Shown here in pieces: positions 27,639 through 31,626 of a stretch of DNA of 46,451 nt. The stretch spans positions 1-46,451 of the forward strand of contig CALVAW010000012.1 of the NCBI GenBank assembly GCA_944325655.1, written 5' to 3'. The notes under the pieces are model-generated. The model saw nothing but the letters and a program-made list of their open reading frames with translations. It was not told the DNA's origin and ran no database searches. Source of the stretch: Candidatus Gastranaerophilales bacterium (GTDB lineage Bacteria > Cyanobacteriota > Vampirovibrionia > Gastranaerophilales > Gastranaerophilaceae). The stretch's first letter is position 1, and every line of letters starts with the position of its first letter. The translations under genes and the position numbers were made by a program.

Positions 27639-28916
27639 TTAATCCGAAAAATGTTTTCTAAATAATTTCATGGAGCAATATGAGCCGCACATAGTACAAG
27701 GTTTACCTTCTTTTGCCAAGCTTACTCCGTCAAACGCACTTTTATCCAGTGAATTTTTAATTTGTTCTTTCCAATTAAGCTCTACTCTTGCTTTTGACAT
27801 TTCATAATTGCGTTTGATTGCTTCTGAATTACCTCTTGCAAGGTCGGCGCAATGCGCAGCGATTTTTGCTGCTATTATACCTTCTTTTACTTGTGCTGAA
27901 TTAGGTAGACCTATATGTTCAGCAGGAGTTACATAACATAAGAAATCGGCGCCATGGTATGCAGCGAGCGTTCCACCGATTGCAGAAGTTATATGATCGT
28001 ATCCGGGCGCACAATCACATGCAAGCGGTCCAAGAACATATAAAGGGGCATAATCTGTCAATTCTTTTATGGTTTGTATCATTGAAGGAATTTTATTTAA
28101 AGGAACGTGTCCCGGGCCTTCTACCATAGTTTGAACACCTGCTTTTCTTGCACGTTTTACTAATTCTCCAAGAACAATGGTTTCAGCCACTTGAGCTCTG
28201 TCTCCTGCATCTGCAGTACATCCCGGTCTTAAACCATCACCTAAGGATAAAGTAACATCGTAAGTTTTGACTAAATCTAAAAGCTCATCATAAAATTCAT
28301 AAAGAGGATTTTCTTTTCCCGTTGCTTTAATCCAGCAAGCAAGCATAGCGCCGCCTCTTGAGACTATACCTGTAAGACGCTTTTGTTTTTCTAATTGATC
28401 AATTACAAATTTCGTTACTCCGCAATGTACGGTAATAAAATCGACGCCATCGATACATTGTTTTTCTATATCTGAAAATAATTTGTCTTTGCTTAATTTA
28501 GCAATGCTTTTATGTTCATCAAGAGCTTCTTTACCTGCCTGATACATTGGAACCGTTCCTACGGGAAGTTTTGTAGAACTTAAAATTGCCTGTCTGGTTT
28601 CATCAACATAGTTTCCTGTTGATAAATCCATTAGAACATCCGCCCCTGCTTGTTCAATTACTCTGACTTTATCTAATTCCTGATCGATTGATGATTTTTC
28701 ATTTGACGTACCGATATTAGCATTAATTTTTACTTTTAAGCCTTCACCGACAGCAACAGGTATCGAATCTGTTCTTTGATTATTTTTTAATATAACAATT
28801 CTGCCTTGTGCAACTTTTTCTCTTATATATTCAACATCAAGATTTTCTATTCTTGCAACTTGATACATTTCATCCGTAACAGCTCCTGATTGAGCTTCCA
28901 ATATTTGAGTTGTCAT
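27639..28916 (-). CDS. thiC: Phosphomethylpyrimidine synthase ThiC
   Basis: A 425-residue radical-SAM enzyme of thiamine synthesis that converts aminoimidazole ribotide to HMP-phosphate. It is the short form, without the N-terminal extension of the E. coli enzyme. The [4Fe-4S] cysteines lie near the C-terminus in CTMCGSYCSMK (C-x2-C-x3-C). Active-site blocks TVHCGVT, SRGGAMLACW, SLGDGLRPGC, EGPGHVPLNKIP and LGPLACDCAPGYDHITSAIGG are all intact. The TAGGAG site and an 8-base gap place it directly behind the class II aldolase. No TPP riboswitch was found upstream of either gene. Confidence 0.98.
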   Translation of the reverse strand: MTTQILEAQSGAVTDEMYQVARIENLDVEYIREKVAQGRIVILKNNQRTDSIPVAVGEGLKVKINANIGTSNEKSSIDQELDKVRVIEQAGADVLMDLSTGNYVDETRQAILSSTKLPVGTVPMYQAGKEALDEHKSIAKLSKDKLFSDIEKQCIDGVDFITVHCGVTKFVIDQLEKQKRLTGIVSRGGAMLACWIKATGKENPLYEFYDELLDLVKTYDVTLSLGDGLRPGCTADAGDRAQVAETIVLGELVKRARKAGVQTMVEGPGHVPLNKIPSMIQTIKELTDYAPLYVLGPLACDCAPGYDHITSAIGGTLAAYHGADFLCYVTPAEHIGLPNSAQVKEGIIAAKIAAHCADLARGNSEAIKRNYEMSKARVELNWKEQIKNSLDKSAFDGVSLAKEGKPCTMCGSYCSMKLFRKHFSD

Positions 28917-28924
28917 TTTTTCTC

Positions 28925-29560
28925 CTATTTATTTTTATAAAGTTGATTTATTTCCGCAATATCTTTTTTTGATAATGTTTTAATACCACCTAAGACTTCC
29001 GCTCCAAAATATGTTTCTGCATAACTTCTTAAAAGTTCAAGTTGATAAAAAGCGTTTTGCAGAGAATCTGCGCCAATAACTACCCCATGATTTTTTAAGA
29101 GGAGCGCAGAATATTTATCAAAATATTCTCCGACATAAGTTGCTAATTCAATACTTGAAGGACAATAATAAGGCATAATCGGAACATATCCGAATACAAG
29201 CGAAAAATCCGGAAGTATAGGTTTATCCATGGGCTTGCCTGCAACGGCAAACGCAGTAATCAAGGGACAATGACAGTGAATTACAGCATTGATATCATCT
29301 CTTCTTGTATATATTTCAGAATGCATGATTTTTTCACTGGAAGGTTTTTTATTTCCGCCTATAAGATTACCGTTGTAATCCATTAAAACAATATCATTCT
29401 CATCCATATCATTCAAACAAACACCGCTTGCTGAAATCAATATACCTTCTTTTGTTTTAACAGAAACATTACCGCTGGTAGAAGGTGACATACCTTTTTG
29501 ATAGAGCCTTTTTGACCAATATAAAATCTCCTCTTTTGTACCTTGTTGTGAAAATTCCAT
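28925..29560 (-). CDS. Class II aldolase/adducin family protein (fuculose-phosphate-aldolase-like)
   Basis: A 211-residue Zn-dependent aldolase or related lyase. The metal ligands H95-x-H97 (IHCHCPL) and a third His in LLKNHGVV are present, with the catalytic Glu at 76 in PSSEKIMHSEIY. Relatives are L-fuculose-1-phosphate aldolase, L-ribulose-5-phosphate epimerase and methylthioribulose-phosphate dehydratase; the protein is closest in pattern to FucA. It is the first gene of a two-gene unit with thiC. Recently described pathways use this family to recycle 5-deoxyribose products of radical-SAM enzymes, which would make sense next to ThiC, but that is inference. Confidence 0.85.
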   Translation of the reverse strand: MEFSQQGTKEEILYWSKRLYQKGMSPSTSGNVSVKTKEGILISASGVCLNDMDENDIVLMDYNGNLIGGNKKPSSEKIMHSEIYTRRDDINAVIHCHCPLITAFAVAGKPMDKPILPDFSLVFGYVPIMPYYCPSSIELATYVGEYFDKYSALLLKNHGVVIGADSLQNAFYQLELLRSYAETYFGAEVLGGIKTLSKKDIAEINQLYKNK

Positions 29561-29648
29561 AAATACTCCATAAATTTTACAAAAATATTGTACTAAAAAA
29601 ATATTTATGTTTAAATAGTTACAGCAATATTTAACAATATTGACTCTT

Positions 29649-29675
29649 ATGAAAAGGATGGTTCAAAACCATTAA
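29649..29675 (+). CDS. Possible 8-codon upstream ORF overlapping the ispH start
   Basis: ATG at 29649 (with a second in-frame ATG at 29658) reads eight residues, ending in TAA at 29673-29675. The stop overlaps the ATT at 29671 where ispH must begin. It may be a leader whose termination couples to ispH, or it is the true ispH N-terminus cut off by one extra base: removing one C from the CC at 29669-29670 fuses MVQN to the IKKNIKLA of IspH. Confidence 0.35.
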   Translation: MKRMVQNH

Positions 29676-30546
29676 GAAGAATATCAAACTGGCTAAAAAT
29701 GCGGGTTTTTGCTATGGCGTTAAAAGAGCTGTAGACACCACAATTAAATTAAAACGTGAAAATCCGAATAAAAAAGTATCGGTTTTAGGTGAGCTAATTC
29801 ATAATTCGCATGTTATCTCCGAGCTTGAAGGTTTGGGTATAAAAACAATTAATATTTTACCCGAAAAAGGTGAGGGGATTTGCATAATAAGAAGTCACGG
29901 CGAGAGTGATGATGTTTTTAAACAAGTTCAAAAAAAAGGATTTGAGCTTGTTGATTTAACGTGTTTTGATGTAAAAAAAGTACAAAACAAAGCTATAGAA
30001 CTTGTGCAAGATGGCTATTTTGTTATTATTTTGGGAAAAAAAGAACATCCTGAAGTTAAAGCTATTTGTGCAAATGCACAAATGCACGCAAAAAATGCAA
30101 GCGATGTATATGTTGCTCAAAGCGTAGAAGCTCTAAAAGCCATTGAAGACATTATTAAATCCGTTAAAAAGGTGGGGATTGTTCTTCAAACAACACAAAC
30201 AAAAGAATATCTTTTTGAAGTAATAAATTATTTATCTTCAATTTGTAAAATTTTAAAAGTAGAAAATACAATTTGTCCTTCTACTTCGCTAAGACAAAAT
30301 GAAGCAAAAAAATTAGCTCAAGAATCTGAATTAATGGTGGTGGTAGGTTCTAAAAAAAGCGCCAATACAACACATTTAGCGGAAATTTTAAAAAAAATTA
30401 CAAAAACAATACATATAGAACATCAAGATGAATTAGAAAATTATAAAAAAGAAATAAATTCAGTACAAAATATTGGTGTAACCGCAGGAGCAAGCACGCC
30501 TGATACAATTATCAATGAAGTTATAAATAAACTTAATACAATATAG
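29671..30546 (+). CDS. ispH: 4-Hydroxy-3-methylbut-2-enyl diphosphate reductase IspH, with an ATT start
   Basis: The terminal enzyme of the MEP isoprenoid pathway, which reduces HMBPP to IPP and DMAPP on a [4Fe-4S] cluster. Counting from 29671 it has 291 residues. The three cluster cysteines are C14 (AGFCYGVKRAV), C98 (DLTCFDVKK) and C202 (TICPSTSLRQ); the SHG and HPEV motifs are present. The conserved N-terminus requires the reading frame to run through 29671-29832, where there is no ATG, GTG or TTG before the Cys14 block. The only plausible start is ATT at 29671, with AAGGATGGT ending 8 bases upstream. A 1-base indel that hides an ATG at 29658 is the alternative. The S1 gene follows after 12 bases. 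Confidence 0.85.
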   Translation: MKKNIKLAKNAGFCYGVKRAVDTTIKLKRENPNKKVSVLGELIHNSHVISELEGLGIKTINILPEKGEGICIIRSHGESDDVFKQVQKKGFELVDLTCFDVKKVQNKAIELVQDGYFVIILGKKEHPEVKAICANAQMHAKNASDVYVAQSVEALKAIEDIIKSVKKVGIVLQTTQTKEYLFEVINYLSSICKILKVENTICPSTSLRQNEAKKLAQESELMVVVGSKKSANTTHLAEILKKITKTIHIEHQDELENYKKEINSVQNIGVTAGASTPDTIINEVINKLNTI

Positions 30547-30558
30547 AAAGGATAAAAA

Positions 30559-31626
30559 ATGACAAAAGAAACTATGTCAAATCAAGAATTTGAGCAGTTA
30601 CTAGCAAATTCTTACACTTACAAAATTAATGTTGCCGACGTTGTAAAAGGCGTTGTGGTAAAAAAAGAAAAAGACGGCTTTTTGGTAGATATAGGTGCTA
30701 AAACCGAAGCTTTCTTACCTAATCGCGAAATTTCAAATTTTGCTGACAAAAATGTAGATGATATAGTAAAACTTTGGGATGAAAAAGAATTCTACATTAT
30801 TAAAGATGAAGAAGATGACGAAGTTGCAGTATTATCATTAAAAAAAGTTTCTTGTGCTCAAGCTTGGCAAAAATTGTCAGAGCTTAAAGCAGCTAATGAA
30901 AATGTTATGGCAAAAGTTGTTTCATCTGTTAAAGGCGGCTTGATTGCTGAAATTGAAGGATTAAGAGGTTTTATTCCTTCCAGTCAATTAAGAACGGGGG
31001 CTCCTTCTGAAATGCAAGTAGGTCAAGAAATTGAAGTAAAAATTCTTGAAGCTGATCCTAAGAAGAATAAACTTATACTTTCGCAAAGACAAGTATATAG
31101 TCAACAAAGAGAAATGGTTGCAGATGAAATAATATCTCGTCTGGCAGTTGATCAAGTTGTTGAAGGTGAAGTTGTAAGAATAGCTGATTTCGGTGCTTTT
31201 GTTGATATTGAAGGCATAGACGGTTTATTACCAATTTCTGAAATTTCTTGGGAAAGAATTAAACACCCAAGCGATGTTATCCAATTAGGACAAAAAATCG
31301 AAGTTAAAATCATAAAAATCGACGAAGATTTAAAACGTATTTCTCTTTCATTAAAAAGAATGGGCGCAAATCCTTGGGAAGAAATTGTCGATAAGTTTAA
31401 AGAAGGAGATGTGATTAAAGGTACCATAAATAAAATAACTTCATTTGGTGCATTTATCAATATTTATCCGGGAGTTGAAGCTCTTCTTCCTTCATCTGAA
31501 ATTGGAGACGGACAAGTTAACATTAATTCAATGTTCAATCTTGGAGATGAAATTGAAGTATTAATTAAAAAATTCACTCCGCAAGAGCATAGAATCGGAC
31601 TTTCGATGAAAGATATCCAAAAATAA
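30559..31626 (+). CDS. rpsA: Ribosomal protein S1-like, four S1 domains
   Basis: A 355-residue protein with four OB-fold S1 repeats at about residues 20-95, 105-175, 195-265 and 280-352. The last two are the most canonical, each with FGAF, then GLLPISEIS or ALLPSSEIG, and LSLKRM or LSMKDI. S1 binds mRNA at the ribosome; E. coli S1 has six repeats, while four are common in cyanobacteria and Gram-positives. Its place after ispH is typical: in some lineages the two are fused. AAAGGA precedes the ATG, and a strong terminator follows. Confidence 0.92.
   Translation: MTKETMSNQEFEQLLANSYTYKINVADVVKGVVVKKEKDGFLVDIGAKTEAFLPNREISNFADKNVDDIVKLWDEKEFYIIKDEEDDEVAVLSLKKVSCAQAWQKLSELKAANENVMAKVVSSVKGGLIAEIEGLRGFIPSSQLRTGAPSEMQVGQEIEVKILEADPKKNKLILSQRQVYSQQREMVADEIISRLAVDQVVEGEVVRIADFGAFVDIEGIDGLLPISEISWERIKHPSDVIQLGQKIEVKIIKIDEDLKRISLSLKRMGANPWEEIVDKFKEGDVIKGTINKITSFGAFINIYPGVEALLPSSEIGDGQVNINSMFNLGDEIEVLIKKFTPQEHRIGLSMKDIQK

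Follow-up and report, generated by a model that had tools for sequence, protein, structure and literature searches.

To our knowledge, very few bacterial genes rely on non-canonical start codons, examples being infC, pcnB and sigR. The pcnB gene of E. coli, which encodes poly(A) polymerase, starts at AUU and is expressed at a low level; as far as we know it does not adjoin a ribosomal protein gene and has no leader comparable to the one described here. The autoregulation of infC via its AUU codon is established in E. coli, and IF3 destabilises initiation complexes on codons besides AUG, GUG and UUG (PMC5472188). In Streptomyces, the regulatory gene sigR heads a gene pair and has a conserved GTC start, and its repression by IF3 has been proven experimentally (PMC5472188). 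A precedent for control by ribosomal protein S1 is the gamma-proteobacterial rpsA gene, which has an S1-regulated folded initiation region without a canonical Shine-Dalgarno (SD) sequence (PMC10931766). In some bacteria, IspH and S1 sequences adjoin in fusion proteins (NF000907).

Candidatus Gastranaerophilales are uncultured gut bacteria related to cyanobacteria. The stretch analysed here (46,451 nucleotides, hereafter the window) comes from a genome of 1.69 Mb that is 98.8% complete. On its forward strand, the window encodes ispH (4-hydroxy-3-methylbut-2-enyl diphosphate reductase, 29671..30546, 291 aa), an essential gene of isoprenoid biosynthesis. The reading frame opens after a TGA at 29650-29652 and closes at a TAA at 30544-30546. 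The protein matches TIGR00216 with 241.5 bits (cut-off 187.85), residues 4-290 corresponding to model positions 1-281 of 282. As model position 1 falls on residue 4 counted from the ATT at 29671, a start at this codon gives an N-terminus of normal length. Upstream, on the opposite strand, are a thiC-like gene (27639-28916) and a class II aldolase-like gene (28925-29560), both named from the appearance of their sequences. An rpsA-like gene (ribosomal protein S1, 30559..31626, +) follows 12 nt after ispH. Its best match among the NCBIfam S1 models is NF005208 (1.2e-97, though under the curated cut-off). The two genes are adjacent at every locus in the order with enough downstream sequence, usually with a gap of 15-60 nt from the last aligned ispH codon, and are likely cotranscribed. 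Because the rpsA-like gene is equipped with an ATG and SD of its own, it does not require coupling to ispH translation. The arrangement is akin to the IspH-S1 fusions, but here the two genes are separate.

Judging from the comparison of related genomes, ispH is almost certainly translated from the AUU at 29671..29673 (+), as the preliminary description had proposed. An ispH match was found in 25 of 28 genomes of the genus, which represent separately assembled species. The start position is occupied by ATT in 23 of these and by ATA in two (L006, L016), mostly in the form ACC-ATT-A, and there is no conventional start near the AUN codon in any of the 25. The only conventional codons noticed before the cluster motif in the genus are TTGs within the conserved core of one genome (L024). 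The AUN codon is found in the same place throughout, 27-29 nt from a leader hairpin (P1, described below), whereas its distance to the GFC core varies from 9 to 20 codons. This constancy on one side and variability on the other indicate that the position of the start follows the leader rather than the protein. An in-frame TAA lies three codons before the ATT in two congeneric genomes (L004, L017) and directly before the ATA in genus g36, which confines the possible start to a few codons.

A true start elsewhere, for example at the Ile codon ATC at 29680 or at the downstream TTG at 29833, is very improbable. The ATC is also near-cognate and is close to the usual IspH N-terminus, but only the codon at 29671 combines a fixed distance to the leader with a near-cognate codon in all relatives. 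The TTG is indeed the first conventional in-frame start, as noted earlier; it lies 54 codons past the ATT and beyond the first cluster cysteine, so that its use would remove Cys14. A sequencing or assembly error (the preliminary description had considered an extra C at 29669-29670 hiding an ATG), or a programmed frameshift from a mini-ORF at 29649, is hardly credible: removal of one base at 29669-29670 would join an ATG to the ispH frame, but the frame and the missing start are common to 25 separately assembled species, the mini-ORF is not conserved, and the common frame together with the upstream in-frame stops (L004, L017, g36) effectively excludes both. The mini-ORF (MKRMVQNH*, 29649..29675, +, with its ATG at 29649 and TAA at 29673-29675) does overlap the ATT by one base, as had been reported. 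Its lack of conservation across the genus led us to reject stop-start coupling through a conserved upstream mini-ORF, and we do not consider it part of the mechanism.

We extended the reading to 40 further loci, which cover most genera of the family that have a match; relatives bearing names are metagenome assemblies. One genome (G187) has two ispH matches with equal scores on two contigs (C26:14098-14964, C27:4240-5106), which may represent a duplication or mixed strains. Over 84 genomes from 36 genus groups, the codon in frame 25-30 nt after P1 is TTG (41), ATT (24), ATA (11), CTG (5) or ATC (3), although the genomes counted do not amount to as many independent events. Neither ATG nor GTG, both of which were included in the search, occurs at this position in any of the 84 genomes. 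An in-frame ATG in close relatives was an outcome that the preliminary description had named as refuting its reading; no relative in the family has one there, and the idea of a hidden ATG is rejected. The AUN start is conserved in genera g1, g36, g39, g3 and g26, and UUG is used in most of the remaining family. Genus g37 is irregular: one of its genomes has TTG, the other ATT. The automatic CTG call in g34 is doubtful because of a longer insert in this genus. In both g34 loci (L075, L089), P1 is present and a longer stretch with extra hairpins separates it from ispH.

In the other families of the order (f2-f7; L128-L146), the likely ispH start, read by eye, is CTG in 15 of 19 genomes and ATG in 4 (three f6 genomes and one f3 genome). 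Some of these CTG codons are inside small hairpins over the SD and start, e.g., AGCTGATTTCAGCTG in L136. In the sister families f9 and f14 of the class, also read by eye, ATG or GTG is present in frame. An IspH tree of 106 rows implies at least 13 changes of start codon, none of them to ATG among the 87 family rows, and ATG is confined to outgroup rows. In the best tree the AUN genera group together as one clade, although support is weak (74). NTG codons apparently gave way to AUN codons only once, and the SD and leader helix changed along with them. Of the 61,358 ancestral AUG starts in a published survey, one had switched to AUU, and the survey put UUG to AUG switches between close relatives at 1.7% (PMC5622118). 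Compared informally with this background, the complete lack of AUG at the ispH start of the family points to selection.

The preliminary description had likened ispH to infC, and the comparison is apt. Like infC, ispH of the window has a start other than AUG, GUG or UUG. The infC gene of the same genome (G000:C31:6966-7496; L148, L149) likewise starts at ATT, in the same ACC-ATT context as ispH, behind AAAAGGAG; it begins AAAAGGAGATAAAACC-ATT-AGT. Among the 29 genomes in which infC was read, its start is ATT, ATA or ATC, and none has an ATG at the start position. In a scan of the window's genome for ORFs without a conventional start (366 gene-like ORFs, 446 kb), only infC (41 codons) and ispH (60 codons) stand out for a long coding stretch before the first conventional start. 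Thus, this genome carries the classic AUU gene, infC, plus one more, ispH. The AUU of infC, in E. coli and in the window's genome, also resembles that of ispH in lying behind a good SD and in being conserved in relatives. The two differ in that infC encodes the regulator itself, whereas ispH encodes a metabolic enzyme, has a covarying 5' hairpin and is only putatively regulated by IF3. The pcnB gene shares with ispH the AUU start in a gene other than infC. Similarly, sigR is a non-infC gene that leads a gene pair and whose non-canonical start is conserved; it differs in its GTC codon, its regulatory product and the experimental proof of repression by IF3 (PMC5472188).

The predicted promoter of ispH (29588..29616, +) consists of a -35 element TTGTAC (29588-29593), a 17-nt spacer and an extended -10 element TGTTTAAAT (29608-29616). 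It was missed by a simple consensus scan. The promoter block hardly varies within genus g1, and a similar one is present in g36, g37 and g26. A near-invariant block of about 30 nt, TTGTACTAAAAAAATGTTTATGTTTAAATA, was seen upstream of ispH in the window (29588-29616) and in L002-L024, L036-L042, L045 and L088. Its conservation goes beyond the needs of a promoter, and a regulator site may overlap it.

Hairpin P1 (AG-CAATATT...AATATTG-A-CU, 29623..29645, +) lies where the mRNA is predicted to begin and has the general form A-X-N-stem...stem-N'-A-X'-U-Y. Covariation across genera supports it: when 28 sequences from other genera were aligned with MAFFT, pairing held in 90% of cells and 7 of 8 pairs were changed on both sides. 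The covariation score is 0.719; shuffles gave 0.204 and slid controls no more than 0.193. At the second pair, most genera have C-G and the AUN clade has G-C; this pair belonged to the search rule, and the independent evidence for covariation is the 28-sequence alignment. By itself, the window leader folds with a z of -0.97, which is not significant.

A covariance model of P1 matched the ispH leader in each of 15 high-scoring genomes, once per genome, and there were no other copies below E 0.1 in these genomes. The model performs poorly in the genus of the window, where additional copies are possible. A P1 regulon was considered and rejected: an extra match in one genome (G028, E 0.28) appears fortuitous, as do the many with E values of 0.05-5 in 39 relatives. 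The model had no significant match in the order's remaining families, no leader was recognised in sister families f9 and f14, and Rfam 15 gave no match at E <= 1 to the leader of either the window or L055.

The SD of ispH, AAGGA(U)GGU (29654..29662, +), is predicted to form a duplex of -9.2 kcal/mol with the anti-SD, stronger than that of 95% of 275 genes of the window's genome. The corresponding values are -8.9 for infC and -5.7 for rpsA. The assembly of the window's genome is without the 16S end; the canonical anti-SD was found in one relative from the family (G058). The SD is strong in genera with AUN starts and weak in most UUG genera (-2.1), a large difference (Mann-Whitney P 1e-4, a test that ignores kinship). 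The AUN genera are perhaps one clade, so the difference may reflect a single event. A strong SD in the AUN genera is the pattern expected if the SD compensates for a poor start codon.

We suggest, with a probability of about 60%, that ispH synthesis from the AUU is held down by control tuned by IF3. The action of IF3 on non-canonical codons and the precedent of infC make this the plainest mechanism (PMC5472188). The host IF3 was identified (TIGR00168, 209.9 bits) and its own start is non-canonical (ATT). In the proposed mechanism, ispH would be the first gene of an ispH-rpsA unit, with the AUU at 29671 read as fMet by initiator tRNA. The mRNA would present hairpin P1, then the SD and then, in this genus, a second hairpin (P2) that partly covers the SD and AUU. 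The AUU would make ispH initiation depend on the strictness of start-codon proofreading by IF3, as for infC. The output of ispH would be kept low and would rise whenever IF3 becomes scarce compared with ribosomes or P2 opens. The sequences themselves show the start site, the lack of AUG in the family, P1 and its confinement to ispH, the neighbouring rpsA and the AUU of infC; we infer the discrimination by IF3, the effect of P2, cotranscription and coupling with rpsA, and a role for P1.

P2 (GAUGGUU-CAA-AACCAUU, 29657..29673, +) was found by folding and covers the SD and start codon. It is present in most of the 25 congeneric genomes, and each of three g1 genomes tested gave a z between -2.3 and -2.7. 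As a family-wide hairpin it was rejected, the support being lineage-wise only (mean z -0.6, Stouffer -3.7, 36 genus groups). Its weakness in L004 and L005 and its absence from several genera, such as g36, count against control by IF3 as proposed. Most genera in the family use UUG, which is not non-canonical to IF3 (PMC5472188), and thus IF3 is not the common reason for the avoidance of AUG. Also, given the strong SD in the window, the net rate of initiation may be ordinary.

Alternatively, the weak codon and leader may only set a constant low synthesis of IspH per mRNA, with no dynamic control by IF3 or any other factor. A fixed low dose would be needed because the promoter also serves rpsA. 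Consistent with this, UUG, simply a weak start, is the prevailing codon in the family, the strengths of SD and codon seem to be mutually compensating, and rpsA has a separate ATG and SD. A fixed dose does not need P1, however, which is conserved by covariation, and the codon in the AUN clade is of the IF3-sensitive kind that it has in common with infC. We regard this explanation as possible but unlikely.

It is doubtful that the leader is an autogenous site where 30S subunits face competition from free S1, the product of rpsA, and are bound weakly enough, owing to the poor start codon, for S1 to win. In favour of such an operator, ispH and rpsA are adjacent throughout the order, but this adjacency also occurs in sister family f9, where conventional starts are present. 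The control region of gamma-proteobacterial rpsA offers a parallel in its folded initiation region, its unusual initiation signals and its location at a locus carrying rpsA (PMC10931766). The initiation region is folded here as well (P1 by covariation, P2 in the window's genus), and the SD is degenerate in many genera. In the window, however, the SD is in the top 5% of the genome, and degeneracy is limited to other genera. Furthermore, the leader precedes ispH rather than rpsA, the hairpin differs from the gamma-proteobacterial one, and binding of S1 is hypothetical.

In the literature searched, we found no report of a non-AUG start of ispH or of an ispH leader. The novelty lies in a metabolic gene with a conserved start other than AUG, which is coupled to a leader RNA not described before. 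Automatic annotation accepts only ATG, GTG and TTG, and thus likely truncates or loses ispH in AUN genomes. We suggest very tentatively that P1 and the obligatory non-AUG start represent an undescribed class of regulatory leader in the ispH-rpsA unit of Gastranaerophilales, which would sense S1, IspH or an isoprenoid intermediate as its signal and act on start-codon selection. If so, a single leader would link the synthesis of isoprenoids to the supply of ribosomes. This leader offers a tangible candidate for a novel element of translational control, and the family-wide avoidance of AUG in an essential metabolic gene is a natural experiment on start-codon choice and proofreading by IF3. Read from sequence, the locus suggests that production of IspH, and perhaps that of the adjoining ribosomal protein, is throttled deliberately at the start of translation in these bacteria.
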